Below are positions 3,174 to 47,710 of a stretch of DNA of 47,831 nt, piece after piece. The translations under genes were made by a program, and so were the position numbers. The DNA is taken from positions 1 through 47,831 of the forward strand of contig CAJBLH010000061.1 in the NCBI GenBank assembly GCA_903953895.1, read 5' to 3'. Numbering within the stretch: the stretch's first letter is position 1; the number at the start of each line of letters is the position of its first letter. Source of the DNA: an uncultured Desulfobacteraceae bacterium. Lineage in GTDB: Bacteria; Desulfobacterota; Desulfobacteria; Desulfobacterales; Desulfatirhabdiaceae. A model generated the notes under the pieces. It was given only the letters and a program-made list of their open reading frames with translations. It did no database searches and was not told where the DNA came from.

Positions 3174-3184
3174 CGATAATTTTG

Positions 3185-3209: not shown

Positions 3210-3242
3210 AAGATACCCTATAATGATGAGGAGAACCTCAAA

Positions 3243-5285: not shown

Positions 5286-5293
5286 TTATCCAT

Positions 5294-5313
5294 AAGGTTT
5301 AAGGTTTAAGGTT
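5294..5313. repeat. short tandem repeat AAGGTTT
   Basis: Nearly three copies of a 7-bp unit (AAGGTTT, AAGGTTT, AAGGTT) lie just after the cooS stop codon, in the 80-bp gap before acsB. This is a simple-sequence tract with no evident function. Confidence 0.6.
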
Positions 5314-5365
5314 AACAGCATGTTTAACGCTTAACACTTATTTCCTCAACGAAGGAGGAGTTTCT

Positions 5366-7582
5366 ATGTCAAGATTAGTTGCATTTGCGGCCATTCAGGG
5401 CGGCTATAATATCGTTTCGAAAGTCGAAGGCAAATACAAAAAGGCTCTGGCAACCTATAACGCCGACACCAAAGTCGGTTTCCCCAACACGGCCTATTAT
5501 CTGCCGGTCATTTACTCGCTTCTTGGGATGAAGGTCGAAACCCTGGAAGACATGAAAAAACCGCTGGATTTTGCCCGTGGTCTGTTGCCCCCGCATGTCA
5601 AGGGCTCGCATCATCTTCCCTATCTGGGGCCACTGCTGGATGCCGGCATGGCGGCGCTGCTGGCATTTGAAATCGAAGAGGCGCTTCGTTATCTGACGGA
5701 TCCGGATTATTATCTTCACTCCGAAGATATCGATGAAGCCAGCGGCAAGATATGGCTGGGCGCAGCCGATGACACGGTGTTCAGAAAACGCGGTGTAGAA
5801 TTTGTGGACGGCTCGGCTCCGGGATTTGCGGCCATCGTGGGCGCCGCCCCCAGTCCTGAAATCGCCAAGATGATCGTGGAAGAATACCAGAAACGTAGTC
5901 TCTATATTTTCCTTGCCGCCAACCAGAACGGCACCACAGTTGCCGAACAGTTGATCGAGGCAGGAGTTCAGATCGGCTGGAATACCCGTATCGTTCCCTT
6001 TGGTCCGGATATTTCATCCGCCATTTTCGCTCTTGGCTTTGCCAACCGCGCCGCCATGGCCTTCGGCGGGATCAAACCCGGCGACTACAAGACCATGCTG
6101 ATGTATAACAAAAACCGTATCTTTGCATTCGTCAATGCACTTGGTGATGTAAATGCGGAATGGGCTGCTGCGGCTGCCGGCTGCGTCAACTGGGGTTTTC
6201 CGACCCTGGCCGACACCGACATTCCGGAGATTCTGCCGACCGGTATCTGCACCTACGAGCATGTTGTAGCCAACGTCAAACATGAAGACATGGTTCAGAA
6301 ATCCGTTGAAGTCCGGGGTCTCAAGGTCACGGTTTCCAAGATCGACATTCCCTGCGCATTCGGCCCGGCCTATGAGGGCGAGCGCGTCAGAGGTGCGGAT
6401 CTGTATTGCCAGTGCGGCGGTGGCAAGACTCAGTGTACCGAGCTGGTCAAAATGGCGGAAATGGGCGAAATTGAAGACGGAAAAGTCATTGTTGACGGAC
6501 CGGATTTAAAGGACGTGAAAGAAGGCGGCACCTTCTCCCTGGGTATTTATGTCCAGGTCGCGGGCCGCGAATTCCAGACTGATTTTGAACCCATTCTGGA
6601 ACGCCAGATCCACCATCTCATCAATTATATTCAGGGCATCATGCACATCGGACAGCGGGATATTTCCTGGGTCCGGGTAAGCAAGGCCGCCGTGGATAAA
6701 GGCTTCTCCCTGAAAGACATCGGGGTTGTGCTTCATGCCAAGTTACACCAGGATTTCGGAAAGATTCTTGACAAGATTCAGGTAACGCTTTTCACCCAGA
6801 AGGACGATGTGGACAAGCTGACCACCCGTGCCCGCGCCGAATACAAAATGCGGGATGAGCGCGTTGAGAAGATGACCGATGAAGCCGAAGAAATTTTTTA
6901 CTCCTGTACACTCTGTCAGTCTTTTGCACCCAACCATGTCTGCACCGTCAGCCCGGAACGAACCGGTCTTTGCGGCGCATACAACTGGATGGACTGTAAG
7001 GCTTCTTATGAAATCAATCCCACAGGCCCCAATCAGCCCATTGAAAAAGGGGAATGTCTCGACCCCGTATTGGGTCAGTTCAAGGGCGTTAATGAATTCA
7101 TTCTGAAAGCCTCTCGCGGGGCCGTGACACATTATAATTTTTACTCCATGGTCACCGATCCCATGACCACCTGCGGATGCTGCGAATGTATCGCTGCTAC
7201 ACTTCCCACCTGCAACGGCGTTATGACCGTCGGACGCGATTATGCCGGTGAAACGCCCTGCGGCATGAAGTTCACCACCCTGGCCGGTGTCATGGGCGGC
7301 GGGGCCTCCTCACCTGGATTTGTCGGCCATTCCAAATACAACATCACCCAGAGAAAGTTCATCAAGGGTGATGGCGGGCTTCACCGCATGGTCTGGATGC
7401 CGAAAGCTCTGAAAGAAGAGCTGAAAGAAAGAATCGTCAAGCGCGGAGAAGAGATGGGGATTCCCAATTTCTACGATATGATTGCCGACGAAACCGTGGG
7501 CATCACCGAAGAAGAAATTATGCCCTTTCTCCAGGAAAAAGGCCATCCGGCCCTGTCCATGCCGTCGATCATCGGCGGTTGA
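5366..7582 (+). CDS. acsB: acetyl-CoA synthase (CO-methylating), CODH/ACS A-cluster subunit
   Basis: Condenses CO, a methyl group from the corrinoid protein and CoA into acetyl-CoA. The 738 residues match the bacterial full-length form with its N-terminal CODH-contact domain. A-cluster ligands are visible: C514, C517, C526 and C536 for the 4Fe-4S cube (motif SCTLCQSFAPNHVC), and C603-G604-C605 for the distal nickel. The spacing is the same as in Moorella ACS, with a constant offset. The ATG at 5366 follows GAAGGAGGAG. It sits between cooS and acsC in the operon. No unusual residue was noticed. Confidence 0.98.
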   Translation: MSRLVAFAAIQGGYNIVSKVEGKYKKALATYNADTKVGFPNTAYYLPVIYSLLGMKVETLEDMKKPLDFARGLLPPHVKGSHHLPYLGPLLDAGMAALLAFEIEEALRYLTDPDYYLHSEDIDEASGKIWLGAADDTVFRKRGVEFVDGSAPGFAAIVGAAPSPEIAKMIVEEYQKRSLYIFLAANQNGTTVAEQLIEAGVQIGWNTRIVPFGPDISSAIFALGFANRAAMAFGGIKPGDYKTMLMYNKNRIFAFVNALGDVNAEWAAAAAGCVNWGFPTLADTDIPEILPTGICTYEHVVANVKHEDMVQKSVEVRGLKVTVSKIDIPCAFGPAYEGERVRGADLYCQCGGGKTQCTELVKMAEMGEIEDGKVIVDGPDLKDVKEGGTFSLGIYVQVAGREFQTDFEPILERQIHHLINYIQGIMHIGQRDISWVRVSKAAVDKGFSLKDIGVVLHAKLHQDFGKILDKIQVTLFTQKDDVDKLTTRARAEYKMRDERVEKMTDEAEEIFYSCTLCQSFAPNHVCTVSPERTGLCGAYNWMDCKASYEINPTGPNQPIEKGECLDPVLGQFKGVNEFILKASRGAVTHYNFYSMVTDPMTTCGCCECIAATLPTCNGVMTVGRDYAGETPCGMKFTTLAGVMGGGASSPGFVGHSKYNITQRKFIKGDGGLHRMVWMPKALKEELKERIVKRGEEMGIPNFYDMIADETVGITEEEIMPFLQEKGHPALSMPSIIGG

Positions 7583-7615
7583 TAGGCCCGGTATCTTGAA
7601 CTGAAGATGGAAAAG

Positions 7616-7643
7616 CTGAAGGCTGTACAGCAGCAGCCTTCAG
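7616..7643 (+). repeat. perfect 10-bp hairpin between acsB and acsC
   Basis: CTGAAGGCTG (7616-7625) and CAGCCTTCAG (7634-7643) are perfect reverse complements separated by 8 nt. No T-run follows at once, so it is more likely an intercistronic stabiliser or processing element than a full terminator. It lies 33 bp after acsB. Confidence 0.6.
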
Positions 7644-7757
7644 TCATCCATCCTTGGTCATAGCCTGCTTTTTTGTATGGTGGGTTCACGCACCAACAAC
7701 ATTTCCGGACGCAAATGACCGTTTGCGTTCCTGGTGAATACAAATAAGGAGATAACA

Positions 7758-9098
7758 ATGGCATTAACCGGTATTCAGATTTTCAAACTTCTGCCGAAAA
7801 CCAACTGCAAGGAATGCGGGGTTCCGACCTGTCTGGCGTTTGCCATGAATCTGGCATCTAGCAAGGCGGAACTGGATAGCTGCCCCTATGTATCCGAAGA
7901 GGCCAGAGAAAAACTGGCTGAAGCCTCCGCTCCACCCATTCGGCCTGTCGCCATTGGAAAAGGGGTTCGGGCATTGACTTCCGGCGGAGAGACTGTTCTT
8001 TACCGACACGAGAAAACCTTTTTCAACAAGACCGGCCTGGCGGCGATGGTCGAATCCAGCATTTCGGTTGCCGACCTTCAAGCCAAGCTGAAGGTATGGA
8101 ATGCTTTCCAGTTTGAGCGCGTGGGCCTGAATCTTCGCCCCGAAATGGTCGCCCTGAAGGATGTCACTGGCGACAAAGCCGCTTTTGCCGAAAAAGCCAA
8201 ACTGATTGCCGAAACCACAGAATTCAACCTGGTATTGATGACCGGCGACGCCGCTGTCATGAAAGCCGGTATTGACGCCTGTAAATTCAAAAAACCCCTG
8301 ATGTATGCGGCCACCGCCGCCAATGTCGACGCTTTTGGCGCACTGGCCAAAGAAAACAATCTGCCGCTGGCGGTAAAAGCGGATTCGGTTGAAGCGCTGA
8401 TTCCCTTGACCACGAAGCTGACCGAAATGGGGCTGAAGGATCTGGTCATCGATTCCGGTTCCCGGGAAATGAAAAAGGCCCTCGAAGATCAAGTCGTCAT
8501 CCGCCGAGCGGCCCTGAAACAGGGAAACCGGGCACTGGGCTTTCCGACCATTGCCTTCCCCTGCGAAATGGCGTCCAATCTGGATATGGAAACTCTGATC
8601 GCCGGTATGCTGATCGCCAAATATGCAGGGGTTGTCGTGCTGTCCGATTTCAAGGGCGAGTCTGTCTTCCCGCTGCTTCTGGAACGGCTCAACATCTTTA
8701 CCGATCCGCAGCGACCCATGACTGTCGTTGAAGGAATTTATGAAATCGGCAATCCGAACGAGAATTCGCCGGTTCTGGTAACCACAAACTTTGCTCTCAC
8801 CTATTTTATCGTATCCGGTGAGATTGAAGGCAGCAGGGTTCCCGCTTGGTTGCTGATCAAAGACTCCGAGGGTCTGTCGGTCATGACGGCCTGGGCCGCC
8901 GGCAAGTTCTCCGGAGATGACGTGGGTATGTTTGTCAAGAAATGCGGCATCGCCGACAAGATCAAACACAAGGAACTGATTATTCCGGGTTACGCTGCGG
9001 CAATTGCCGGAGATGTAGAAGAAGAACTCACTGGCTGGACCATTACGGTCGGCCCCAGAGAAGCGGCCCATATCCCGGCGTTTTTAAAAGCCAGATGA
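7758..9098 (+). CDS. acsC: corrinoid iron-sulfur protein large (gamma) subunit, AcsC/CdhE
   Basis: Large subunit of the corrinoid Fe-S protein; it binds cobalamin and a 4Fe-4S cluster that reactivates the cobalt. With the chosen start it has 446 residues. The N-terminal cluster motif is clear: C17, C20, C25 and C42 (NCKECGVPTC, then SCPY). A TIM-barrel and a C-terminal B12-binding Rossmann region (from about residue 330, LLIKDSEGLSVMTAWAAGKF) follow. The frame extends upstream to 7734, but AAGGAG at 7746-7751 places translation at the ATG at 7758. Partner of CdhD; methylated by the AcsE encoded next. Confidence 0.97.
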   Translation: MALTGIQIFKLLPKTNCKECGVPTCLAFAMNLASSKAELDSCPYVSEEAREKLAEASAPPIRPVAIGKGVRALTSGGETVLYRHEKTFFNKTGLAAMVESSISVADLQAKLKVWNAFQFERVGLNLRPEMVALKDVTGDKAAFAEKAKLIAETTEFNLVLMTGDAAVMKAGIDACKFKKPLMYAATAANVDAFGALAKENNLPLAVKADSVEALIPLTTKLTEMGLKDLVIDSGSREMKKALEDQVVIRRAALKQGNRALGFPTIAFPCEMASNLDMETLIAGMLIAKYAGVVVLSDFKGESVFPLLLERLNIFTDPQRPMTVVEGIYEIGNPNENSPVLVTTNFALTYFIVSGEIEGSRVPAWLLIKDSEGLSVMTAWAAGKFSGDDVGMFVKKCGIADKIKHKELIIPGYAAAIAGDVEEELTGWTITVGPREAAHIPAFLKAR

Positions 9099-9136
9099 TT
9101 TCTTTTCCCTGAAAAGGGTCAGAAAATCCGGATTTC

Positions 9137-9159
9137 GGGCAGAAATTCATCTTCTGCCC
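9137..9159 (+). repeat. perfect 8-bp hairpin between acsC and acsE
   Basis: GGGCAGAA (9137-9144) and TTCTGCCC (9152-9159) pair perfectly over a 7-nt loop; flanking GATTTC and GAAATTC can lengthen the stem with a bulge. A smaller hairpin (CTTTTC at 9102-9107 with GAAAAG at 9111-9116) precedes it. There is no T-run. Like the hairpin at 7616, it sits in an intercistronic gap of the operon. Confidence 0.55.
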
Positions 9160-9222
9160 TGAAATTCGGGCTGGGCGCAGTACCTTGCCCCTGCCCTCAC
9201 CATTTTCACCCAAGGAGGTTGT

Positions 9223-10104
9223 ATGTATCTAATTGGCGAAAGCTTGAATGTTATCAACAAAAAAATTGGTCGGGCTTATAAAGAACGCGATCCCAAGCCC
9301 ATTCAGGAAGAAGCCCTGTTTCAGAAGTCGAAGGGAATGGATTTTATTGACATCAATCTGGGACCGGCCAAAAAAGACGGGGTGGATCTGATGCCCTGGG
9401 TGGTTCAGGTGGTTCAGGAAGTTGTGGATGATGTTCCATTGGTCCTGGATACCTCCAACATCGACGCTATTGAAGCCGCGCTGAAGGTCTGCAAGCTGCC
9501 TCCGCTGATCAACTCCATCATGTGCCGTCCGGAGCGATACGAGCGTATGATTCCGATCGCCGCCAAGTACAACGCGGATTTTATCGCCCTGATGTGGGGA
9601 CCGGAAGGCCTGCCGCGAGATGAAAACGAACGCGCAGCACTGTGTGTGGAGCTGCTTTATGCCGCCAATGAGGCTGGCATCCCGAATGAAAAGATCTGGG
9701 TTGACGGAATTGTTACACCGGTCAACATCCAGCAGCCCCAGCTCATCAGCCTCATGAATTTTCAGGCCATGATTCAAGACATTGCGCCGGGCGCCAAAAG
9801 CACCTGCGGTTTGTCCAACATTTCAAACGGCCCGCCGACTCATCTGCGGCCCATTTTGAATCAGACATATATGGTCATGCTCGAAAAACACGGCATGTAT
9901 TCGGTCATCTCTGATCCGCTCGATGATCAACTGACCTCCATTGCCAAGGGAAAACGCCAGGATATCGTGGATATGATCTACGGCATCATGGACGGCAACC
10001 AGCCGAATATGGCCGGCCTTTCCAAGGAAATGCAGGATTATGCCAAAACCACCAACGTCATTTTAGGCAATGTTCTGTATTCCGACTCCTGGCTGGAAGT
10101 ATAG
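9223..10104 (+). CDS. acsE: methyltetrahydrofolate:corrinoid Fe-S protein methyltransferase
   Basis: Transfers the methyl group of 5-methyl-THF to the cobalt of the corrinoid protein (AcsC/CdhD). The 293 residues fit the pterin-binding TIM-barrel family. Characteristic segments include DINLGPAKKDG, LDTSNIDAIEAAL, NSIMCRPERYE and CGLSNISNG. ATG at 9223 follows AAGGAGG. It is the last recognisable Wood-Ljungdahl gene of the operon and is followed directly by a terminator-like hairpin. Confidence 0.95.
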   Translation: MYLIGESLNVINKKIGRAYKERDPKPIQEEALFQKSKGMDFIDINLGPAKKDGVDLMPWVVQVVQEVVDDVPLVLDTSNIDAIEAALKVCKLPPLINSIMCRPERYERMIPIAAKYNADFIALMWGPEGLPRDENERAALCVELLYAANEAGIPNEKIWVDGIVTPVNIQQPQLISLMNFQAMIQDIAPGAKSTCGLSNISNGPPTHLRPILNQTYMVMLEKHGMYSVISDPLDDQLTSIAKGKRQDIVDMIYGIMDGNQPNMAGLSKEMQDYAKTTNVILGNVLYSDSWLEV

Positions 10105-34961: not shown

Positions 34962-36500
34962 TCATTGGGGAGATACCGGAACCAATTCATCATGCATCTT
35001 AACCGCATGGGATGCGGAAATGGGCAATAAAACAGTGAACGTCGATCCCTGAGAAGGTTCACTTGTGACCTGAATGCTTCCTCCCAATTCTTCCAGAAGG
35101 CCCTTGACGATGGGAAGGCCCAGGCCCGTGCCGGTGATAAAACGGGTTTTTTCATTCTTGACCCGATAAAACTGTTTAAAGATATTGTCGATATCTTTGG
35201 CATCGATGCCAAATCCGGTATCGCTGACGTCTGTCCGGATTTTGTCCGGAGTCAGGCTGATCTTGACCTCGATGGCGCCGCCATCCGGCGTATAGTTGAT
35301 GGCGTTTGCGATCAGATTTCCAAAAACGCTTTCCAGAGCCCGGGGGTCGGCTGAAATCATGGGGACCGGCTCGTCGGGAAGAAACAGATGCAGTTTCTGA
35401 TTTTTTGAGCCAGCCCGGATTTCCATAAAATCCACAATGCTTTTCAGAAGCTCATCCAGCTTGACAGGCTTGCACTCGATACACACATTTCCGGCCTCGA
35501 TCCGGGACAGATCCAGCAGGTCCCCGATCAGGGAAATCAACCCTTGCGTTTTTTCCTTGGCCCGCGACAGCAGATATTGATCCCGGGAAGACTCCTTTTC
35601 AACCATGTCTTTTAAAACCAGCGCCAATTGCTCATGAATGGTGGACAACGGGGAGCGCAGTTCGTGAGACACCTTGGCCACAAATTCGGATTTCAGGCGA
35701 TCCAGTACCTTCATGGCCGTAATGTCCACCAGATTGACCACAGCCCCGAGGCATTCGCCGCTGTCGCCAAGGACCGGCCTTCCGGAGGCCATCAGGTATT
35801 TTTCGCCGACTGTCGTAAACTCGTAGGTTGCCGGAAGGGACGGATCATTTCCGGCGGAAATGTCTTTGACCATCTGGCAAAACGCTTTATCCTGAATGCA
35901 GGCTTCAATGGCCTCTCCCGCAGCCGTATCCTCTTCGATGCCCATCAGCCACTGAAAAGCCGGATTCATCAACGCTACCTGACCCTGGACGTTGGTTACA
36001 AGAACGCCGTTTGGGAGAGATTCGACAATGGTGCGAATACGGCTTTTTTCCGTATCCAGGTCCGCCAGATTCCGTTGTCGCTCCTGAGCCAGTCTTTCGG
36101 TTTCTTCGGTAAGGCGAATCCGCTCTCTGGCGCGATTGATGACAATCCGCAGTTGGTCGGGTTGAAAAGGCTTGGGGATAAAGTCGTATGCTCCCTGCTT
36201 CATGGCTTCGATGGCGGTTTCAAGCGTGGCATAGCCGGTAATGATGATGACCAGAATCTCGGGATTCAGTCGTTGGATATGTCCCAACACCTCCATCCCG
36301 TCCATACCCGGCATTTTTAAATCCAGCAGCACAATGGATACTGGTTGCAGCTTCAGAACGTCCAACCCCTCACTTCCCCTTGAAGCTTTAAAAACCTGAA
36401 ATCCCATACGCGTCAGAATGCGTTCAGATCCTTCTCGAATACTTTCTTCATCATCGACGATAAGAATGGACAAACGATTCAAGGTATTTTCAGGTGTCAC
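34962..36500 (-). CDS. hybrid sensor kinase: REC - PAS - HisKA - HATPase
   Basis: A soluble histidine kinase of 512 residues with an N-terminal receiver domain. REC (about 10-125) has VDDEES, the acceptor Asp in LLDLKMPGMDG, the switch Thr in ITGYATLET and Lys in IPKPF. A PAS domain spans about 155-270. The H-box is KVSHELRSPLS and the ATPase lobe carries N, G1 and G2 boxes (NAINYTPDGG, DTGFGIDAKD, GTGLGLPIVKG). No membrane helix is present, so it is cytoplasmic and takes its input by phosphotransfer. GTG start at 36500 after AGGAAGG. It sits 65 bp downstream of another kinase, which suggests a phosphorelay. Confidence 0.93.
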   Translation of the reverse strand: MTPENTLNRLSILIVDDEESIREGSERILTRMGFQVFKASRGSEGLDVLKLQPVSIVLLDLKMPGMDGMEVLGHIQRLNPEILVIIITGYATLETAIEAMKQGAYDFIPKPFQPDQLRIVINRARERIRLTEETERLAQERQRNLADLDTEKSRIRTIVESLPNGVLVTNVQGQVALMNPAFQWLMGIEEDTAAGEAIEACIQDKAFCQMVKDISAGNDPSLPATYEFTTVGEKYLMASGRPVLGDSGECLGAVVNLVDITAMKVLDRLKSEFVAKVSHELRSPLSTIHEQLALVLKDMVEKESSRDQYLLSRAKEKTQGLISLIGDLLDLSRIEAGNVCIECKPVKLDELLKSIVDFMEIRAGSKNQKLHLFLPDEPVPMISADPRALESVFGNLIANAINYTPDGGAIEVKISLTPDKIRTDVSDTGFGIDAKDIDNIFKQFYRVKNEKTRFITGTGLGLPIVKGLLEELGGSIQVTSEPSQGSTFTVLLPISASHAVKMHDELVPVSPQ

Positions 36501-36565: not shown

Positions 36566-38026
36566 TCACGCTGTATTTTCAGGGTTGATGGGCAGTTCGA
36601 TCACAAAAACAGATCCCTGGCCCGGATTGTTTCTGGCGGCGATTCTCCCCTGATGGCTTTCCACTATGCCGTAAGCCAGGCTCAGCCCCAGACCTGTGCC
36701 TTTTCCTTCTTCTTTTGTCGTGTAAAAAGGTTCAAAAACATGGGGCAGCACCTCATCCGGAATTCCGGGGCCAGTGTCGGAAATTTTAACAATGACATTC
36801 TGTGCGTCCGGCGACAGGGTTGTGGAAATGGATAGATTCCCCCGGCCGTCCATGGCCTGAGCCGCATTTAAAATGATGTTCATGAACACATGATTGAGTT
36901 GCTGGATGTCGCCCAATACCTGAGGAATATCAGCGGACAGGCGGGTCTCGATCAGAATATTCTGAAACAGAACCTGTTTTTCCAGGAGGAACAGGGTTCG
37001 GGTCAATGCTTTGTTGATATCGTGAAAATGCTTTTCCTGCCGGGTTTGCCGGGCAAATACGAGCAACTCTTTAACGGTATCCCGGCACCGTTCGGCATCC
37101 TTTAAAATTCGGCTCAAATCCTCTTTGGCCGGCTCTGTCAGATCATATTCCTCTTGAATCAGCCGGGAATAAAGCATGATGCCGCCCAGGGGGTTGTTGA
37201 GTTGATGGGCGACACCAGCAGCCAGCTTGCCCAATGACGCCATTTTTTCATTCTGAAGCAGTTGAATCTGGGCGGCTTCAAGTTCTTTTTTCAATCGAAG
37301 GCGTATTCGTAAATCATGAAAAAAACCAATGGAACCGACTTCTTCGTTGTCTTCGTAAATGATCGAAGCATACAAGCTGATGGGAATTTTCTCGCCGTTT
37401 TTTCCCAGAACATCCACGTGGTATTCTTTCAGTTTTCCCGTACCGCCGTAATCCTCGCTGCGCATTTTTTGCATAATGTCCCATGCACCGCGGTCCGGAT
37501 AAAGATCCTGAATGTAAAGAGTTTCGAGTGCTTCCTGAACGGTGTATCCGCTGACTTCCGCCGCAGACTCGTTGAAAATGAATATTTTACCCCTTCGGTC
37601 CGCGGCGATCACGCCATCCACAGCGCTGTTGAGCATGTTTTTCAGAAAGGCATTCGAGCGGCGCAGTTGCTCTTCCAGTTTTCCGAGCCGGGGTAGATCG
37701 AAATCCACCATCAGCAGCGCTTCAATAGCGCCGTTGGAATAGATGGGGTAACAGGAAACCCGCTCGCTTTCCAGCAGGCTTTTGGGGGAATGCCTCAGAA
37801 TGGGTTTGCCGTTCTGAAGCACACGACAGGCGGGGCAGTCATCACAGGGCGTGCTGAATTCAAAATAAATATCATAGCAAGTGCTGCCGACGATTTGCTT
37901 GCCGCGTTTTTCAGCCGTGTACCGATTGGTGGCCAGAATGCGATGATCCGGAGATACGACGATCATTTCGCGGTCCAGCGCATCGACAGCCCGGATCAGG
38001 TATTCTTTTTCAGATTCTGTGCGCAC
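36566..38026 (-). CDS. PAS-PAS sensor histidine kinase with a Cys cluster
   Basis: A cytoplasmic kinase of 486 residues with no membrane helix. The first PAS domain (about 10-115) carries four cysteines, C50, C61, C64 and C67 (CYDIYFEFSTPCDDCPAC), a pattern that could hold a metal or Fe-S cluster or act as a thiol switch. A second PAS domain spans about 125-245. The H-box is LAAGVAHQLNNPLGG, and the N, G1 and G2 boxes are NAAQAMDGRG, DTGPGIPDEV and GTGLGLSLAYG. The start is GTG at 38026, 16 bp after the stop of the Sec-containing HdrCB-like gene. This implies co-transcription and a redox input. Confidence 0.93.
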   Translation of the reverse strand: MRTESEKEYLIRAVDALDREMIVVSPDHRILATNRYTAEKRGKQIVGSTCYDIYFEFSTPCDDCPACRVLQNGKPILRHSPKSLLESERVSCYPIYSNGAIEALLMVDFDLPRLGKLEEQLRRSNAFLKNMLNSAVDGVIAADRRGKIFIFNESAAEVSGYTVQEALETLYIQDLYPDRGAWDIMQKMRSEDYGGTGKLKEYHVDVLGKNGEKIPISLYASIIYEDNEEVGSIGFFHDLRIRLRLKKELEAAQIQLLQNEKMASLGKLAAGVAHQLNNPLGGIMLYSRLIQEEYDLTEPAKEDLSRILKDAERCRDTVKELLVFARQTRQEKHFHDINKALTRTLFLLEKQVLFQNILIETRLSADIPQVLGDIQQLNHVFMNIILNAAQAMDGRGNLSISTTLSPDAQNVIVKISDTGPGIPDEVLPHVFEPFYTTKEEGKGTGLGLSLAYGIVESHQGRIAARNNPGQGSVFVIELPINPENTA

Positions 38027-38042
38027 GCAACCATCCTAAAGC

Positions 38043-39341
38043 CTAAAGGCCGACTTCCGCCAGATCGGGTCCCAGATAAGTGCGTTCATTTTCACCCAGC
38101 ATCCCCAGCGACAGGCAGATCAGTGTCCAGAGATGCACCGTATGGTAGTGGGCCTCATAATGCTCGCCGATGTCATGTACCTGAGCATGGCAGTTGTGAC
38201 AGGGTGTAATGCAGTAATCAGCGCCGGTAGCCATGATCTGTTCGAATTTGAGTCTGCCGTAGGCCCGCCTGGCTTCAGGGATGCCAGATTGCAGAAAACC
38301 GCCGCCACCGCCGCAGCAGTAGTTATTGGACCGGTTTGGAAACATATCGATGAAATTGTCCTCGCCCACAACGGCTTTGACGACAAACCGCAAATCCTCC
38401 GCCACCGGATCTCCAAAGGTTTTCCGCACCAACTGGCAGGGATCCTGAACCGTAAACTTGACTTTCAGGTCTTTGTTCCAGTCGGAATTGACCTTGAGCT
38501 TTCCTTCCCGGATCCACTGCGCATAATATTGAATGATGCTTTTGATTTCAAAATTGTAGGGAATGTTGAACTTTTTCAGTCCCGCCCGGACTGCAAACAG
38601 CTCGTGCCCTCATTCGGTATTGAGCCAGACCTTGCACTGCAGGTCATCCACGGCCTTGGCCTTGACCTCGACGATATGCTTCCAGTGGTCGTTTTCAGCC
38701 AGAAACATGCAATAATTCTCTGCCGCCCAGCCCTTGGAGCCATATGTCCAGTCTGCGCCAACCAGATGCAGAATTTTCCATAGCGGAACCATTTCATCCG
38801 GTTCGGTCACCGGCTCCCGGGAATTTTGATTCAGAAAAAACTCGGCTCCGACCTTGTCCATCGGCGCCTGAAGGTCTTCAAAACCGGGCTGGCTTTCCCG
38901 AACTTCATTTAGGATGTCTTCCACTACAAATCGCCAGTCTTCTTCGGATGCGCCCATAGCGCTGCACGTGTCATGTTTCAATGCCATATCGCATGAACCC
39001 ACGATTCCTTTGGGCTTCAATTCCCGGGGCCAACTCGATCGGACATTGAATACCAACTGGGGAATATCGATTTTCATGGGACAGACATAGATGCATCGCT
39101 GGCACATGGTACACATCCATGCCCACTTGGAGTTCAGGATTTCATCATCCATACCCAGAGAGGCCATGCGCAGAAATTTCCGGGGGTCCATATCTTCCAG
39201 TCCGGTTGCCGGACATCCAGAAGAACAGGCGCCGCAGGTCAGACAGAGGTTCAGGTTTCCGCCATCCGGCAGAAGGGCCATGACTTTGTCTTTAAACAGG
39301 CTTTTACCTGATTTTGAGAGACGAATGACATCTGTTGACAT
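38043..39341 (-). CDS. selenocysteine-containing HdrC-HdrB-like iron-sulfur oxidoreductase (UGA readthrough at 38610-38612)
   Basis: A 432-residue protein if the in-frame TGA at codon 244 is read as Sec. Two HdrC-type 4Fe-4S motifs come first: C33/C36/C39/C43 (CLTCGACSSGCP) and C77/C80/C83/C87. Next is a first CCG-type half ending in NTE-Sec-GHE, where relatives have ECGH. A second CCG half follows with DPC at 300-302, YCCGGGGG at 341 and CITPCHNC. The frame is open on both sides of the TGA with no other stop, and the family resemblance continues through it. A bSECIS-like hairpin starts 16 nt downstream. Relatives (HdrD, GlpC, DsrK, TmcB) pass electrons to thiols, quinones or other Fe-S proteins. 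It is flanked by a response regulator and a kinase. Confidence 0.9.
38577..38612 (-). promoter_or_regulatory. putative bacterial SECIS element of the HdrCB-like gene
   Basis: After the TGA at 38612-38610 and a 16-nt spacer, CAGTCC (38593-38588) pairs perfectly with GGACTG (38582-38577) around the loop GGGCG. The UGA-to-loop distance of 22 nt and G at the loop start match the bacterial SECIS pattern that SelB recognises. Confidence 0.65.
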
Positions 39342-39366
39342 GAGTGAAGGTCTCCTTGAAATAAAA

Positions 39367-39436: not shown

Positions 39437-39446
39437 ATTTTCTTAA

Positions 39447-39833
39447 CTACATGCCCAGTAATCGCTTGACGCTCTGGGTAATGTCGTCTGCAGAAGCCGG
39501 CTTGGGAAGATAATCGTCGGCTTCCGTACTCATGCCGTCATAATGAGAATATTTTGTGGAGGTAACGCGGTCTGCAACCGCTGTCAGGAGTACAATCGGA
39601 ATATTGGCATAGGCGCTGTCTTTTTTGAGCGCCGCACACAGCTCATAGCCGTCCATCTCCGGCATCATGACGTCGAGAACAATGGCGTCCGGCGGGTTGG
39701 CTTTGATTTTTTCAAAACCTTCAACGCCGTTATAGGCAACTTCGGTTGCAAAACCTTCTTTTTCCAGATAGGTCTGCACAATCATCGAAAAATCAGGCTC
39801 ATCATCAACGATGAGAATGCGTTTTTTACTCAT
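39447..39833 (-). CDS. single-domain (CheY-like) response regulator
   Basis: A lone receiver domain of 128 residues with no output domain: acidic pair in IVDDEPD, acceptor Asp in IVLDVMMPEMDG, switch Thr in LLTAVADR and Lys in PKPAS. AAAGGACGTGACTT precedes the ATG. It lies 105 bp upstream of the Sec-HdrCB gene, with the two kinases beyond it on the same strand. It may serve as an intermediate phosphate carrier between these kinases or act on another protein. Confidence 0.93.
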   Translation of the reverse strand: MSKKRILIVDDEPDFSMIVQTYLEKEGFATEVAYNGVEGFEKIKANPPDAIVLDVMMPEMDGYELCAALKKDSAYANIPIVLLTAVADRVTSTKYSHYDGMSTEADDYLPKPASADDITQSVKRLLGM

Positions 39834-40110: not shown

Positions 40111-41046
40111 TTAACTTTCTACCGCGGGCCGGGGATAGAGACCGGCCCGTTTCACAATTTCAGACACTTTTTCTTCCCATTCAATGGCCATGACATGGAA
40201 CCCATGCACGCCTGCCAAGGATTTTAGTCGCTCGATGGTTTCCACGCAGATGGTCAGCCCCTCTTCGGGCTGTTTTTCCTTGGGGGTTCCGGCCATGCGC
40301 TTGATGACATCATCCGGAACATCCATCCCGGGAACCCGGTTTTTCATATACCGGGCCATGCCCACGGATTTCAACGGCGTGACGCCTGCCAGGATGTGTA
40401 CTTTTTCGGTAAGCCCCCGTTCTCTGGCCAGTTTCACCCACAGTTCGAACTTGTCGAGATTAAAAATACACTGGGTCTGAATGAACTCGACACCGGCGGC
40501 GATTTTCTTAGCCAGACGGGGAACCCGGATTTCAAAAGGGTCTGCAAAGGGATTTTCCGCAGCACCCACAAACATGCGGGGCGGCCGGTCGATATCGGCC
40601 CCGCCCAAAAATTTTCCGTCATCCCGCATGTGCCGCACTGTCTGGATGAGCTGAATGGAATCGATATCATGGACATTCTGGCCGGTTGGGCAATCCCCGA
40701 AGCTCTGGTGATCGCCCGACAGACAGAGAATGTTGTGGATATCGAAGGAGGCCGCCCCCAGAATATCACTTTGAAGCGCGATCCGGTTGCGGTCTCGCGT
40801 CACCATCTGAAGTACCGGCTCCATGCCCATGAGTTTCAGGCGGATACAGGCGGCCAGGCTGCACATGCGCGTGACGGATGTCTGGTTGTCGGTAATGTTG
40901 ATGGCATCGACGTAATCCTTGATCAAACGCCCTTTTTCTTCGATATGTTTGGGATTGCTGCCCCGGGGAGGACCGACTTCCGAGGTGACTGCCAGATGTC
41001 CTGCAGCCAGTATTTTTTCCAGTTTGCTTGGTGTTTGGGTGGTCAT
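40111..41046 (-). CDS. metF: methylenetetrahydrofolate reductase, MetF subunit
   Basis: Reduces 5,10-methylene-THF to 5-methyl-THF, the methyl source for AcsE. A FAD-binding TIM-barrel of 311 residues with motifs EVGPPRGSN, NITDNQTSVTRMCSLA, LQMVTRDRNRIALQSD and VEFIQTQCIFNLDKFE. The frame is open to 41103, but the ATG at 41046 overlaps the metV stop (ATGA) and follows the in-gene GGGAGGATG, so translation is coupled to metV. With MetV it forms the MetVF type of reductase known from Moorella, which does not use NAD(P)H alone but works with Hdr/MvhD-type partners. Confidence 0.95.
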   Translation of the reverse strand: MTTQTPSKLEKILAAGHLAVTSEVGPPRGSNPKHIEEKGRLIKDYVDAINITDNQTSVTRMCSLAACIRLKLMGMEPVLQMVTRDRNRIALQSDILGAASFDIHNILCLSGDHQSFGDCPTGQNVHDIDSIQLIQTVRHMRDDGKFLGGADIDRPPRMFVGAAENPFADPFEIRVPRLAKKIAAGVEFIQTQCIFNLDKFELWVKLARERGLTEKVHILAGVTPLKSVGMARYMKNRVPGMDVPDDVIKRMAGTPKEKQPEEGLTICVETIERLKSLAGVHGFHVMAIEWEEKVSEIVKRAGLYPRPAVES

Positions 41047-41711
41047 ATCTGCACATCCTCCCTGACGACTTTTCGGGGTCCGCCGGCCCTGTCGGTGGAC
41101 CAATCCTTGATCGAGAAGAGCTTTTCGTAGTCATCCATGCGCCCCAGCGACTTCAGGCGGTCTACGATGAGCTGCCAGGCGCAGTCCAGGTCTTTGTTGA
41201 CTTCACACTTGCCCTTGGTGGAACCGCCGCAGGGGCCGTTTAAAATCCGCTTGGCGCAGCGGGAAATCGGACAGATACCGGCGGTGTTCGCCAGAATGCA
41301 TTGGCCGCAGGCCTGACATCGTTCCGTCCAGAGTCCGCGCTTTTCCGTAACACCCAGAAAGCAGGTGTTAACACCCGGATAGACTGGCTTGGACAGATAT
41401 TTCTCGGCCATGAACTGAACGCCGACGCCGCAGGCCAGGGAAACCACCGCATCATACCGATCGATGCGATCCCGGATTTCTTCAAGATACTCATGATCGC
41501 ACTGACGTTCCAGGGTAATTTCGTCAATCCGCATGTCTTTTCCGTTGTTGATAAAATACATTCGCAGGGCGGATGCCAGAATGCCCACTTCTTTCTTTCC
41601 GCCCGCTTCACAGACGGTGACACATTCGTTGCATCCCAGAATCAGCACATTGCGGTGAGCTTCCACTTGCTGAATGATTTCTTCGATGGGTTTTCTATCG
41701 GCTACAATCAT
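41043..41711 (-). CDS. metV: MetV, iron-sulfur partner of methylenetetrahydrofolate reductase
   Basis: Small partner of MetF, 222 residues, rich in Cys: GCNECVTVCEAGG near the N-terminus (C28, C31, C35) and CQACGQCILANTAGICPISRC near residue 135, followed by NGPCGGSTKGKCEV. These match the Zn/Fe-S MetV family, which carries electrons to the MetF flavin. It is preceded by mvhD (140-bp gap) and translationally coupled to metF. The order hdrA-mvhD-metV-metF is the layout expected for an HdrA-linked MetVF complex. Confidence 0.93.
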   Translation of the reverse strand: MIVADRKPIEEIIQQVEAHRNVLILGCNECVTVCEAGGKKEVGILASALRMYFINNGKDMRIDEITLERQCDHEYLEEIRDRIDRYDAVVSLACGVGVQFMAEKYLSKPVYPGVNTCFLGVTEKRGLWTERCQACGQCILANTAGICPISRCAKRILNGPCGGSTKGKCEVNKDLDCAWQLIVDRLKSLGRMDDYEKLFSIKDWSTDRAGGPRKVVREDVQI

Positions 41712-41851: not shown

Positions 41852-42283
41852 TCAAGCCGCCTTTTTCATGGCCAATTTGATAGGATTGGGCCCCAGTTCG
41901 CGAATGCGTTGATCCATTTCCCGGGCATATTCGGCGAACCGAGGACCTTCCGCTGAAGAGAGGTTGAACATCTGAACACGCTCTCCACCCACGCCGACGG
42001 TGTCAAGGAGTTTCTTGGCCTGTTCCACCCGTTTTCTGGCTCGAAAGTTACCGCTGTTGAAATGACAATCTCCTTCCATGCATCCGACAGCGTAAACGCC
42101 GTCCGCACCTTTTTCAAATGCCCGGAGAATGTGGAGAATATCCACTTTCCCCGTACAGGGCACGCGAATGATCTTGGTGCTGGAGGGGTAGCTGAGCCGC
42201 ATCGAACCTGCCAGGTCCGCAGCAGTATACCCTCAGTAATTACAGCAAAATGCAACGATAACCGGTTCAAACGCTTCCGTCAT
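41852..42283 (-). CDS. mvhD: MvhD/FrhD-type 2Fe-2S electron-transfer protein with selenocysteine (UGA at 42233-42235)
   Basis: A 143-residue MvhD if the in-frame TGA at codon 17 is decoded as Sec. The N-terminus reads AFCCNY-Sec-GYTAADLAG, where MvhD proteins have the 2Fe-2S motif FxCNxC(S/G)Y. The rest is a full MvhD: IIRVPCTGKVDILHILRAFE, GVYAVGCMEGDCHF and the C-terminal third. The ATG at 42283 overlaps the hdrA stop in an ATGA, showing coupling. A gene caller would start inside, at about 42202 (MRLSYPSS), and lose the redox centre. MvhD links HdrA to a partner dehydrogenase or hydrogenase; here metVF is the obvious neighbour. Sec forms of this family are known in methanogens and deltaproteobacteria. 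Confidence 0.95.
42204..42235 (-). promoter_or_regulatory. putative bacterial SECIS element of mvhD
   Basis: After the TGA (42235-42233) and a 14-nt spacer, GGACCT (42218-42213) pairs with AGGTTC (42209-42204), including one G-U pair, around the loop GGC. Outer pairs are possible (GCTG with CAGC, GGGTA with TACCC). The UGA-to-loop distance is 20 nt and the loop starts with G, as in bacterial SECIS elements. Confidence 0.65.
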
Positions 42284-45200
42284 AATACCCCCTCCAGCAG
42301 GGCGTCTACCTTGCTGAGCAGTTGATCATCTTCATACCAATTCAGTTCGATCGCCTTGGCCGGACATTCGGATGCGCAAATGCCGCATCCATGACACAGC
42401 GCCACATCGATCTCGCTGACGCCGTCCGCGTTGATCCGTGGAACACCGTAAGGGCAGGACCGCACACAGATCAGGCAGGACGCACACATATCTGCTGTTA
42501 CCTGAGCCGTAACAGCAGAAAGGGTCAGGCTGTCCTGAGACAGAAACGTGGTGGCCCGGGAAGCTGCGGCCAGTGACTGTGCGATGGTTTCTGTAAGCAG
42601 TTTAGGACTGTGGGCTGTTCCGCAGATAAAAATGCCTTCTGTGGCCATGTCCACGGGCCGGAGCTTGACATGGGCTTCCAGGTAATACCCTTCGGCATTT
42701 CTGGCCAGCTTCATGATGGAGGAAAGTTCTTCGGTATCCCCTGCGACCATGCCGGCGCTGAGTACCAGACAATTGGCGCTGATCTGCAGTTTGCGCCGGA
42801 TGATCGGGTCGGTAAAAACGACATCAATGCCTTCCGCGGTGAAGTCAACCGTCGGCATGTCTTCCGGTGTATAACGGAAAAACAGGATGCCCAGTTTTCT
42901 GGCTTCGGTGAAATAGTCTTCGAGCAGCCCGTAAGTACGAATATCCCGATACAGGATGCTGACTTCCGCATCCGGATTCATCGCCTTGATATGCAGCGCA
43001 TTCTTGACAGCGCTCTGACAGCATATCCGAGAGCAGTTGGGGTTCTGATCGTTTCGTGAGCCGATACACTGAATCATGACCACCTGTTTCAGATTTGAAG
43101 CGCCCTGGGTTTCCAGAAATTTGCCCAGTTCCACCTGGGTCATGACCCGTGCATCCTGACCATAACCGAATTCAACGGGCTTGTATTCGGTAGCGCCGGT
43201 TGCCAGAATCACGGCACCATGGTCGATTTTTCGCTCGTACATGCCGGGACCAACCAGAACTTCCGTGGTGAAATTGCCTTTGAATCCGGTGAATCCAACG
43301 ATCAGCGACTCGGTGAGTACCTGAAGTTTGGGGTGAGATCTGACTTTTTGAACCAGATCATCGAGATATGCCTGAATATCGGCGCCTTCGATGGTTTGGG
43401 TCAGTCGGCGGGCCATGCCGCCAAGTTCCGGTTCTTTTTCGATCAGAACGACTTCAAATCCCTGATCCGCCAGCCCGAGGGCCGCGGTCATCCCGGCAGC
43501 GCCACCGCCGACCACCAGGGCCCGCTTGTTGACGGGAATCTGTTTTTCATGAAGGGCCCTTAAGGTTCCGGCCCGCGCCACAGCCATTCTGACAAGTTCC
43601 TTGGCTTTCTGGGTGGCCTGCTGGGGGCTGTCTGAATGAATCCAGGAATCCTGGTTGCGGATATTGGCCATTTCAAAAAGATATTTGTTGAGCCCGCAGG
43701 CCTGAAGGGTATCCATGAAAATGGCTTCATGGGTCTTGGGACTGCAGGAAGCCACGACCACCCGATTCAACTGGTGTTCCCGGATCAGTTCCTTCATCAG
43801 GTCCTGAGCATCCTGAGAGCAGGAAAACAGATTCTGGCCAGCGTACACGACATTCGGAAGGGTTGTGGAATATTCCTGAACCGCCGGTACATCCACCACA
43901 CCCGCAATATTGATGCCGCAATTGCAGACAAATACGCCGATCCGGGGCGTCAAACCCTCGACCGGCATCTCTTCCGGTATAACGACGGTTTTGGTACAGG
44001 AATACCTTGCCGGAGCCAGATTCGCACCGGCGGCGCAGGCCGCAGCACTGGCTTCGATGACAGACGAGGGAATGTCTTTGGGGCCCTGAAACACGCCGCC
44101 TACGTAAACACCGGGGCGGGAGCTTTCAACGGGGGCAAATGGATGGGTGGAAGCAAACCGGTATTTCCCCAGATCCACATGCAGACGCCCTGCCAGATCC
44201 ACTGAAGACTGCGGTACCTGAAGCCCGATCGAGAGAACGACCATATCGAAAGTTTCTTTCTGTATCGCCCCCCCGTCATCCACATAACGGATAACGAGTT
44301 CACGGGTTTCAGGAACCTCGTCGATGGTATGGATTCGGGATTTCACGAACCGGACACCGGCCCTGTCTTTCGCCCGAAGATAGTATTTTTCGTAGTCCTT
44401 TCCAAAGGAGCGGATGTCCATGTTGAATATAGCGCAATCCAGATTACCGCCGGCATGCTCCTTGGCGATCATGGCTTCTTTGATGGCGTACATGCAGCAG
44501 ACGGACGAGCAATAACCGTTGCCGCACCGGTTGACATCCCTGGAGCCTACGCACTGCAACCAGGCGATGCGCTTGGGTTCGGTGTGATCCGAGAGTTTCA
44601 CCAGGTGCCCCATGGTGGGACCGGATGCACTCAGAATGCGTTCGAACTCGAGGCTTGTGATCACATTGGGATTCTTTCCGTAATGATAGAACTGCCTGAA
44701 CGGCGTGGGATCGAAGGCCTCGCTGCCCGGGCACAGAATAACCGAGCCGACAGGGATATTGCGAATCACCGTTTCCTGATCGTGATCCACGGCCTTGGCC
44801 AGACAGGCATCCACGCACTGATAGCATTCCGAACAGATGCCGCAGGCCAGGCACCGGTCGGATTCTTTCCGGCTGCTTTCTTCTTCGTATCCGAGCTGTA
44901 CTTCGTTGAAATTAGCCACCCGGGACTGTGGCGGCAGATGGGGCATGGGCTCTCTGTCGGCTTTTGAAACACCCTCCACCGGTATATCGGCAGCGGCCGT
45001 CCAGTCGACTTCACGGCCTTCCATAATATCCAGTCCTTGAATGAACCGGTTGATGGAAATGGCCACCTCTTTCCCTGCCTGAATGGCCTCCACAACGGTT
45101 TTAGGGCCGGATACCGCATCGCCCCCGGAGAAAATATCCGGGTCTTTGGATTGCAGGGTAACGGGATCCACGACCATGGTTCCCCATCCGGTCAGGGTGC

Positions 45201-46767
45201 AGGCGCATTCATCTGTCAGACATGCCCAGTCGGACTCCTGGCCGATGGCCGGAATCACGGCATCCACTTCGATGATGAATTCGGAGCCCTTGACCGGAAC
45301 CGGACGTCGCCGGCCGCTCGGGTCGGGCTCTCCGAGCGCCATCCGGATGCATTCGAGGCCCTTGACCTTGCCGGCGTCATCTCCGATGATCCGCACCGGG
45401 TGGGTCAGGGTTTTGATTTCAATGCCTTCATCTTCGCATTCCGTGATTTCATCGCGACCAGCCGGCATTTCGTCCATGCTGCGGCGATAGATGATGAACG
45501 GCTTGGATGAGCCGGTACGAAGAGCGGTTCGGACCGAATCCATGGCCACATTCCCGCCGCCGATGACCGCCACGCGGTCCCCAAGATGAATCCGGTTGCC
45601 CAGATTGACTTCCCGCAAAAATTCGACTCCCGGATACACGCCGGTCAGGGATTCGCCATCAATGCCCAACCGTTTGCACTCATGGGCGCCGATGGCCACA
45701 AAAAAAGCCTTAAAGCCCTTTTCCCGAAGCTGGGCGATGGTAAAATCCTTTCCGATTTCGACACCTGTCTTGAACTGAACGCCCAGATCCCGGATGGTCT
45801 GGATTTCGGATTCGATAATGTCGCGGGGAAGTCGGTAAGACGGAATGCCGACGGTGAGCATGCCGCCCAAAACCGGCAGTTTTTCGAAAACCGTTACCGC
45901 ATAGCCTTCGATGGCCAGATAGTACGCAGCGGTAAGACCGGCCGGGCCGGAACCGATAATGGCGACTTTTTCGTTTTTCGATTCCTTGATCCTGGGAACA
46001 AAAGGAGAACCGCTTTTTAAATCTTCATCCGCCAGAAAGCGGTGAAGATATTGTATGCCGATGGGTTCGTCCACCTGATTGCGCGTGCAGATGGTTTCGC
46101 AGGGGTGGTGGCAAACACGGCCGCAGACTCCCGGAAACGGGTGATCCTGCTTGAAGAGTTCCAGCGCTTCCCGGTATTTTCCCGCATTGATCAGGGCGAC
46201 GAACCCTTGAACGCTGACATGTGCAGGACAGATGGCCTTGCAGGGGGCAGTGCCACGTTTTGTAATGGCGAAAGCGCCGGGAATTGCCTGGGCATACTGT
46301 TTGAAAGCCGCCTTTCGGGTGGCAAGGGACTTGTTGTATTCGTCCGGGATGCTGATAGGGCATACTTTAGCGCATTCACCACAGCTCGTACATTTGGAAA
46401 GATCAATAAACCGGGGCTTCTGCCGGACCCGGGCCGTAAAACTGCCGGGGTTTCCGCTGAGTTCCAGAAGCTCGGTTTGGGTGAGTAACTCGATGTTCAG
46501 ATGCCGGCCGACCTCGACCAGTTTGGGTGAGATCACTCACATGGCGCAATCGTTGGTGGGAAACGTCTTGTCGATCTGGGACATCATGCCGCCGACCGCC
46601 GCCGACTCCTCGACCAGATACACATAGTACCCGGAGTTGGCCAGATCGAGCGCGGACTGCATGCCCGCTATTCCGGCGCCCACAACCATAACGGCGCCCA
46701 CGAGTGGTGGCGAAACACCACCATCGCTTTCAGCCACAGGAAGAAAGGGCTCTGCTCGTTTTTCCAT
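42280..46767 (-). CDS. hdrA: giant HdrA fusion (HdrA - NfnB/GltD-like insert - HdrA) with selenocysteine (UGA at 46537-46539)
   Basis: A 1495-residue flavo-iron-sulfur protein if the TGA at codon 77 is Sec. Start ATG 46767 follows AAAGGAAA. Order: FAD-binding GAGIAG near 29; DCAM[15 protein letters not shown], where HdrA has DCxMC; ferredoxin motif at C126/129/132/136. An inserted NfnB/GltD-like module follows, about 167-580 ([27 protein letters not shown] at 272, GGGNVAMDS at 403). The rest of the first HdrA has a Cys-rich motif at about 639-651 ([13 protein letters not shown]) and [12 protein letters not shown] second HdrA has GGGAAG at 1087 and [14 protein letters not shown]. Two C-terminal ferredoxin motifs lie at 1428-1468. 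The family does flavin-based electron bifurcation or confurcation. It overlaps mvhD by ATGA. A TGA-blind annotation would lose the first FAD segment. Confidence 0.95.
46504..46539 (-). promoter_or_regulatory. putative bacterial SECIS element of hdrA
   Basis: After the TGA (46539-46537) and a 15-nt spacer, CTGGTC (46521-46516) pairs with GGCCGG (46509-46504), including two G-U pairs, around the loop GAGGTC. The UGA-to-loop distance is 21 nt and the loop begins with G and contains GGU, all fitting the bacterial SECIS pattern. Confidence 0.6.
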
Positions 46768-46840: not shown

Positions 46841-47710
46841 TTAGATTTTTTCAAGGATGTCGGGGAGTTTGTCTTCCCACCCGATGGTCGATACTAATAC
46901 CCCGCTGAACCCTTGAGATCTGAGTGCAGCGATGGTTTCAGAGGCAATATGGGTGCATTCCCGAACTTTGTCGGGTGCATTCTGTATTCGTGTGATTAAG
47001 GATTCCGGGATTAACACATGCTCGACATTCCGGGACATGTAGCGGGCCATGCCTGCAGATTTCAGAAGTAGTACCGTCGGTATGATGGCGACTCTGCTCC
47101 GGTCGATCCGATTGAGAAACGGTCCCAAAACTCCTATATCGAACACCGGCGGCGTAATGAAAAATCGAACGCCGCTGTTGTTTTTTTGATTGAGAAGCTC
47201 GATTTCAGATTCCAGGCTCTCTCCCTTGGCCTGGGCTTGAACCGTCGATCCCACAAGAAACCGGGGAGATCCTTTCAAATCTATACCAGCCATGTCTTTG
47301 CCGTCTTGAAGCTTTTTCAGGGATTCCAGCAGCTCCATCAGGGTGATGTCGTATACGGCCTTGGCCTCATGATGGTCTCCGAAACGGGGGTCTTGGCCGG
47401 CGACCGCCATGACCGTGGAAATACCGCAGGCTGAAGCTGCCAGCAGATCCGCCTGCAGTGCCAGCCGGTTTCGGTCTCGGCAGCATATCTGCATGACAGT
47501 TTCCATACCGGCCTGCTGCAGGGCAATCGCACCGCCCAGGGCGCTCATGCGCATGACCGCGTTGCTCATTTCAGGAATCAGGAAGGCATCGACCTGCTCT
47601 TTGACACGCCTGGCATTCTTGATCATGGCGGAGATATCTGCGCCTTTGGGAGGTTCCATCTCGGCCAGAACGATGAATTCGCCGGCCTCTATCTTGGTTT
47701 TCAGATGCAT
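46841..47710 (-). CDS. second MetF-family (methylenetetrahydrofolate reductase-like) protein
   Basis: A MetF paralogue of 289 residues with the FAD TIM-barrel pattern: LAEMEPPKGADIS at the start, MQICCRDRNRLALQADLL, TVMAVAGQDPRFGDHHEAKAVYD and VRFFITPPVFD. It is clearly different from the metF at 40111 and lacks an adjacent metV. GGAGG precedes the ATG at 47710. It is the first gene of the strand block and lies 73 bp upstream of hdrA. It could be a true MTHF reductase, a version for another pterin, or a partner subunit of the HdrA complex; I cannot decide from sequence alone. Confidence 0.88.
   Translation of the reverse strand: MHLKTKIEAGEFIVLAEMEPPKGADISAMIKNARRVKEQVDAFLIPEMSNAVMRMSALGGAIALQQAGMETVMQICCRDRNRLALQADLLAASACGISTVMAVAGQDPRFGDHHEAKAVYDITLMELLESLKKLQDGKDMAGIDLKGSPRFLVGSTVQAQAKGESLESEIELLNQKNNSGVRFFITPPVFDIGVLGPFLNRIDRSRVAIIPTVLLLKSAGMARYMSRNVEHVLIPESLITRIQNAPDKVRECTHIASETIAALRSQGFSGVLVSTIGWEDKLPDILEKI

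Follow-up and report, generated by a model that had tools for sequence, protein, structure and literature searches.

Gene content of the locus

The window, which is the whole stretch of 47,831 nucleotides analysed here, carries on its minus strand a gene cluster in the order metF1-hdrA-mvhD-metV-metF2-response regulator-hdrCB, followed by two kinases. The features of this cluster, together with those of a CODH/ACS cluster on the plus strand, are as follows.

46841..47710, minus strand: metF1, second MTHFR-family protein; Pfam MTHFR over the cut-off, NCBIfam below the cut-off
42280..46767, minus strand: hdrA, predicted selenoprotein of about 1495 aa; motif NDCAM-U with Sec codon at 46537-46539; GltD-like NAD(P)-binding region
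41852..42283, minus strand: mvhD, predicted selenoprotein; motif FCCNY-U-GY with Sec codon at 42233-42235
41043..41711, minus strand: metV-like partner (MTHFR C-terminal domain, DUF5981); Pfam PF12225 over the cut-off, no NCBIfam match at 1e-10
40111..41103, minus strand: metF2, methylene-THF reductase family; Pfam MTHFR over the cut-off, NCBIfam MTHFR matches below the cut-off
39447..39833, minus strand: single-domain response regulator in the interval between metF2 and hdrCB; Pfam Response_reg
39352..39357, minus strand: AAGGAG, resembling a ribosome-binding site, 5' of the hdrCB ATG; direct sequence reading
38043..39341, minus strand: hdrCB-like gene of a predicted selenoprotein, 432 aa, ATG at 39341, TAG stop at 38043-38045; Pfam Fer4_8 and CCG
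38610..38612, minus strand: in-frame TGA, predicted Sec codon 244 (NTE-U-GHE); translation, with Sec or Cys in 135/135 distinct close-family proteins, window included
38577..38593, minus strand: putative SECIS apical hairpin CAGTCC-GGGCG-GGACTG with a 6-bp stem, starting 16 nt after the TGA
36566..38026, minus strand: PAS histidine kinase directly downstream of hdrCB; Pfam
34962..36500, minus strand: response regulator-PAS-histidine kinase; Pfam
1617..10104, plus strand: CODH/ACS cluster (delta, CO dehydrogenase, ACS alpha/beta, gamma, methyltransferase-like); NCBIfam

Four of the five CODH/ACS proteins score over the NCBIfam model cut-off and the methyltransferase-like one below it. Because these genes lie at the other end of the window, we regard the region as acetyl-CoA-pathway territory. 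The gene set of an Hdr-type methylene-THF reductase (metV, metF, hdrA, mvhD and the hdrB/hdrC function) was found by Pfam in the single minus-strand cluster, and no hydrogenase genes were found among the neighbours there. Since HdrA (CAM-U) and MvhD (FCCNY-U) also carry an in-frame TGA, the cluster is predicted to encode three selenoproteins, and the initial annotation was right to call hdrCB the third of them and to describe its product as having an HdrC-HdrB architecture. It had also placed the gene among two-component genes. These are indeed present, but the setting that matters is the operon metF-hdrA-mvhD-metV-metF, in which or beside which the two-component genes are located.

Between the response regulator and hdrCB, the interval 39342-39446 holds copies of a dispersed repeat, CTGCCCCCTGATACCTG, which has 31 matches in the same genome at up to two mismatches, compared with 0 for the reversed control pattern. 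By eye, the histidine kinase at 36566-38026 has a Cys-rich N-terminal stretch, STPCDDCPACRV, that could be a redox-sensing site. Elsewhere in the genome, contig C279 carries a second cluster, hdrA-mvhD-hdrCB(Sec)-metV-metF, and on contig C63 a distant Sec copy stands beside hdrA-mvhD-like genes.

Predicted selenocysteine at residue 244

Translated with TGA read as U, the minus-strand frame 38043-39341 gives 432 residues with a single TGA and a terminal TAG. Two ferredoxin motifs precede the TGA (C33, C36, C39 and C43; C77, C80, C83 and C87), the TGA itself opens a UGH motif (U244-G245-H246), and the second CCG motif behind it is complete (C302, C342-C343, C381-x-x-C384). The frame, coordinates, TE-Sec-GHE site and length of 432 residues given in the initial annotation are all borne out by this read-through translation, and the HdrC ferredoxin motifs and the second CCG motif that it claimed are present in the product. 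It had further put the Sec in the first CCG half; this is correct for the Sec, but that half has no working CCG motif, its aligned cluster ligands being lost except for residue 244.

The TGA of hdrCB is almost certainly read as selenocysteine, a prediction from sequence on which four lines agree: the machinery, the conservation of Sec or Cys, the SECIS and the constraint downstream. As to the machinery, the genome has tRNA-Sec (75.5 bits), SelB (382 bits) and SelA (597 bits), each over its cut-off, which is also exceeded in 5, 2 and 1 of 14 control genomes, respectively.

As to conservation, residue 244 is Sec in 118 and Cys in 17 of the 135 distinct close-family proteins (≥55% identity, more than 100 bits and residues 40-385 covered, window included). 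Homologues with neither residue were looked for as evidence against the claim and none was found (0/135), so the claim stands; the comparison for Cys at the same position returned the 17 proteins just mentioned. Matches at E ≤ 1e-60 occur in 45 of 57 genomes taken from genus to order, its own included. A phylum sample of 297 genomes, again with its own and with at most five candidates scored per genome, contains 37 genomes with a match at E ≤ 1e-120. The 51 matches from that sample divide into 39 with the TGA and 12 without a stop. Sec (U) is also found in 80/80 GTDB loci, which were the top 80 out of at least 570 relatives and are thus biased toward near relatives.

The hairpin that had been claimed 16 nt after the TGA, with a stem of 6 bp, is there, and its stem pairs are kept across Sec relatives. 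Among the sites caught by sequence patterns (NTE-TGA/TGC/TGT-GH; for group B, W/Y-P/C-E), all six pairs are formed in 111 of 119 Sec stretches and in 0 of 17 Cys stretches. The fold in the window has a z of -2.45 against dinucleotide shuffles and of -2.13 against synonymous-codon sequences, 35 of 1000 of which are equally or more stable. Under dinucleotide shuffling the mean z is -2.31 for the 119 distinct Sec stretches versus -0.50 for the 17 Cys stretches (p 4e-7), and against synonymous-codon sequences the two means are -1.38 and -0.18 (p 7e-6). At position 252 the Sec proteins have R (101) or L (17) and the Cys proteins W (12) or Y (5); this residue seems to be dictated by the hairpin.

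Behind the TGA, purifying selection acts on the codons about as strongly as ahead of it. Comparison with the two nearest relatives gives dN/dS values of 0.049 and 0.051 after the TGA and of 0.040 and 0.062 before it; for two further relatives the values after the TGA are 0.027 and 0.021, with synonymous sites before it saturated. That the TGA might instead be a true stop, a sequencing error or the mark of a decaying gene is hardly conceivable. TGA is a stop codon in table 11, but the codon recurs in the phylum matches and GTDB loci counted above, and SECIS, downstream constraint and Sec machinery are all present. We therefore rejected a true stop or a pseudogene.

For the history of the site we used a tree of 155 rows made with FastTree only, restricted to matches covering residues 40-385 at more than 100 bits, with fragments left out. 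It has 4 Sec/Cys changes, compared with a mean of 18.2 for shuffled labels, on a topology in which 51 of 152 inner branches are open, a long-branch warning applies to L075 and some phylum labels look wrong; the rows include some duplicates of a gene that differ in their ends (e.g. L003/L059), and some genomes and records overlap. A Cys protein, L054, and a Sec protein, L055, are nearest neighbours on this tree (support 81). Both genes have hdrA and mvhD behind them and, ahead of them, a distant MTHFR-family gene (26-27% identity to metF1); metV is also found at L054, and the stretch of L055 ends ahead of where metV would be. Because these tree neighbours share their gene surroundings, Cys seems able to replace Sec at residue 244.

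Some relatives show peculiarities of their own. In a Desulfobacterales genome (bin589, L197:10001-11296) the frame is broken around residues 228-232, before the TGA, by assembly error or decay, and the two pieces were left out of the tree and the residue counts. Genome G042 has a tandem pair of Sec hdrCB genes (L077:6621-9694) that are 71% and 73% identical to that of the window. A third subgroup, seen in the phylum sample, comprises 13 matches at 53-56% identity; 12 of the 13 have the TGA, and 12 of the 13 come from genomes of 2.0-2.7 Mb. A scan of viral contigs gave 82 pattern matches, none of which was a relative. More distant still is an HdrCB-like group (31-38% identity) with Sec in 18/18 rows, in the motif W/Y-P/C-E-U-GHA. 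It includes the copy in the same genome (G000:C63:14761-15894; rows L003 and L059) and 16 other rows, and the neighbours are HdrA/MvhD-like in 16 of its 18 rows. Its member L059 scores under the HmcF, TmcB and DsrK cut-offs. A clear fold signal is absent from the 17 distinct stretches of this group (mean z -0.33 dinucleotide, -0.38 synonymous).

Known relatives and the cluster site

By its predicted Sec site and its domains, HdrCB belongs to a selenoprotein family that is already known, 'Fe-S oxidoreductase-like/GlpC'. A Sec 'Fe-S oxidoreductase-like protein' with the motif UGH is listed under PTHR43551 in the table of a review (PMC13188914), Zhang et al. 2006 described Sec Fe-S oxidoreductase-like/GlpC proteins in operons with Sec HdrA, FrhD and FrhA (PMC1794560), and the family is also treated in PMC9312934. 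Like HdrCB, it has the UGH site, Fer4 and CCG domains and a clustering with Sec HdrA and Sec FrhD/MvhD. The initial annotation had presented a Sec HdrC-HdrB-like protein as less commonly described; the selenoprotein is upheld, but its family is already in print. Less obvious than the known family is the setting metF-hdrA(Sec)-mvhD(Sec)-metV-metF-response regulator-hdrCB. The published operons of the GlpC family have FrhG/FrhA (MvhG/MvhA), and the partners in the window are instead MetV/MetF and a response regulator. We keep the family label despite this difference, since the published accounts, in their accessible text, do not make those two genes defining. Hydrogenase genes are present in Desulfoluna limicola (L192), whose HdrCB is 78% identical to that of the window and stands with HdrA, MvhD, a 20-kDa hydrogenase-type subunit and a [NiFe]-hydrogenase large subunit, the latter with Sec in DP-U-ISCATH near its end. 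These five genes also make up the published operon, though their order differs from that in the accessible 2006 text (PMC1794560). From Desulfobacterium autotrophicum, a Sec 'HdrD4' and HdrL proteins with a glutamate-synthase part have been reported (PMC2702500); they may belong to the same or near families as HdrCB and the window HdrA, which is alike in its glutamate-synthase part.

The best NCBIfam models for HdrCB are HmcF (174 bits, cut-off 750), TmcB (163 bits, cut-off 735) and DsrK (108 bits, cut-off 400), with HdrB at 26 bits (cut-off 345). Identity with HmcF, TmcB or DsrK was rejected because none of the scores comes near its curated cut-off. As for HmcF and TmcB, the same genome has them as other genes that exceed these cut-offs (834 and 777 bits); they have the same Cys/Sec-Gly-His site as HdrCB, but with Cys.

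The predicted model of HdrCB (pLDDT 87) has a fold like that of mycobacterial EtfD and of methanogen HdrB/HdrC. In the VIA comparison, in which residues 164-431 are the part spanned by at least one fifth of the rows, EtfD is the best match (Z 23.6, rmsd 2.9, 366 residues) and HdrB chains reach Z 20.1-21.2 over 247-253 residues; an H. pylori protein of unknown function (3kwl, Z 20.2, rmsd 4.0) and LutA (Z 19.2) fall in a similar range. HdrB has two noncubane clusters and EtfD a linear and a noncubane one (PMC13083937), whereas the first site of HdrCB keeps Sec244 only. According to the accessible text of the same paper, the linear [3Fe-4S] cluster of EtfD is ligated by C503, C538, C581 and C584, and the noncubane [4Fe-4S] cluster by C637, C672, C673, C709 and C712 together with H583; in the opinion of its authors the His ligand makes that cluster non-catalytic.

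In a profile alignment of the HdrCB family and HmcF/TmcB with EtfD, at 17% identity between HdrCB and EtfD, U244 falls on C581, G245 on P582, H246 on H583 and residue 247 on C584. The five Cys of the second site and His246 do not vary in either alignment (21 and 9 rows), and the same holds for residue 244 (C/U) in the one of 9 rows, to which HmcF and TmcB belong. From the linear-cluster ligand set of EtfD the C581 position alone is kept, as Sec: no Cys is found in the alignment at the positions of C503 and C538, and residue 247 is E, V, I, A or S in 135/135 rows and Cys in 0/135. Likewise, of the two complete CCG motifs of the HdrB type only the second is found. We rejected the idea that the first CCG half holds a cluster of its own, the aligned ligands other than residue 244 being missing. 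It might be thought that Sec244 ligates a cluster held in that half, given that the aligned C581 of EtfD ligates the linear cluster (PMC13083937), but because the other ligands of the half are absent such a role is unlikely. C211 is found in 135/135 close-family rows, but in the 9-row alignment neither the three distant Sec rows nor TmcB/HmcF have it.

Since the other first-site ligands have been lost, Sec244 would occupy an emptied cluster site beside a probable His ligand. One of the two clusters of HdrB thus appears to have been replaced by a single Sec, and His246 probably completes the remaining noncubane cluster. Sec244 may serve as a ligand, as a nucleophile on a disulfide or as a tuning residue. 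A literature search that left most subscription papers outside met no comparison of the UGH site with EtfD and no statement placing a Sec HdrCB with MetVF, which is weak evidence of absence.

Proposed role in methylene-THF reduction

We propose, with a probability of roughly 60%, that the Sec HdrC-HdrB fusion belongs, as electron-transfer subunit, to a Moorella-type (Hdr-type) methylene-THF reductase that works in the acetyl-CoA pathway of this bacterium, which is related to the sulfate reducers. At the level of sequence, the basis for this reading is the predicted Sec244, the two ferredoxin motifs, the one CCG motif, the loss of first-CCG ligands and the operon. HdrCB would carry electrons between the flavoprotein HdrA (with MvhD) and MetV-MetF, and we infer a path that leads from HdrA over two cubane clusters and the noncubane cluster with Sec244 to MetVF and could be used in either direction. 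One noncubane cluster would be held by the five CCG2 cysteines, probably together with His246. Sec244, at the vacated first-cluster site on the partner-facing end, would act as a redox-active residue or an extra ligand, and a single selenol would do the job of the second cluster of HdrB.

Related systems are known. The Moorella Hdr-type cluster has the same gene set as the window, with MvhD and with an HdrA that is described as having a GltD-like region (PMC9430772), and in marine Chloroflexi an hdrCB fusion occurs with metVF and adjacent two-component genes (PMC5736913), also as in the window. Unlike these versions, the window HdrCB is a predicted selenoprotein that is nearest to the DsrK/TmcB/HmcF models and has one complete CCG motif, and HdrA and MvhD are predicted selenoproteins as well. 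In Sporomusa, pull-downs with tagged HdrB and with tagged HdrA brought MetF along; MetVF was not co-purified with the Hdr-like proteins, and tagged MetV came without HdrB (PMC9430772). The Moorella enzyme, as the accessible text of the same paper has it, could not be purified. For sulfate reducers from seeps, metF-HdrABC has been predicted (PMC10553843).

Among the relatives, MetV/MetF adjoins hdrCB in at least 65 of the 155 rows, some of the labels being weak MTHFR-family matches; this is a lower bound because many loci are short. A Met gene lies no more than 1.5 kb away in 58 of the 65 rows with Met context. The gene order of the window recurs in a cultured relative, Desulfonema magnum (L143). 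Of the 80 GTDB loci (the best of at least 570 relatives), 39 come with flanks of no less than 7 kb on the upstream and 3 kb on the downstream side: MetV/MetF is found on the same strand within 7 kb in 21 of them, only HdrA/MvhD in 10 and neither HdrA/MvhD nor MetV/MetF in 8. The Sec subunit thus occurs without MetVF at 18/39 loci, which counts against the subunit reading, as do the scores of metF1 and metF2 against the NCBIfam MTHFR models, which stay below cut-off. From the counts at the 39 loci we rejected the idea that the subunit goes with MetVF exclusively, and because hdrCB of D. limicola adjoins a [NiFe]-hydrogenase pair, an acceptor other than MetVF must exist. Since the neighbours vary between MetV/MetF, HdrA/MvhD only, neither of these and the D. 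limicola hydrogenase, the Sec subunit appears to be an end-piece common to HdrA-based complexes, with methylene-THF reductase as one of them.

The protein might also be a general thiol/disulfide reductase end-piece, with an acceptor site of the DsrK/TmcB/HmcF kind that works on the disulfide of a protein such as DsrC or on a small disulfide; the adjacency to metVF would then reflect shared use of HdrA/MvhD and not electron delivery to MetF. Sec is suited to thiol/disulfide chemistry, TmcB and HmcF of the same genome share the [C/U]GH site, and the family is also found beside hydrogenase genes or without Hdr/Met neighbours. The adjacency of MetV/MetF in at least 65 of 155 rows, weak labels included, argues against such an enzyme, which we keep as a tentative possibility. 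A role of HdrCB as redox sensor input for the adjoining response regulator and histidine kinases is very improbable. The regulator does lie between metF2 and hdrCB, with the kinases downstream, and a close homologue of it (≥60% identity, same strand, ≤1.5 kb) is kept beside hdrCB in 22 of 155 rows, window included; but the other 133 rows, some of them short loci, are without a regulator within 1.5 kb on the same strand, and HdrA, MvhD and MetVF are the more constant neighbours. An exclusive link to two-component genes was rejected on the same count of 22/155.

How electrons enter and leave methylene-THF reductase is unsettled for acetogens and, by extension, for sulfate reducers with an acetyl-CoA pathway. 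With HdrCB as the electron-transfer subunit of this enzyme, an annotated but unexplained selenoprotein family would be placed in a specific pathway, and it would offer a testable site in the form of a Sec beside a noncubane cluster that is probably completed by His. The recurrent three-selenoprotein methylene-THF reductase operon, together with an emptied first cluster site that would leave Sec only, is a variant worth testing. The natural Cys versions might serve as a built-in comparison for what selenium buys, as in the tree neighbours L054 and L055. If this Sec protein is indeed the fused HdrCB of the desulfobacterial enzyme, the supply of selenium would touch three subunits at once.
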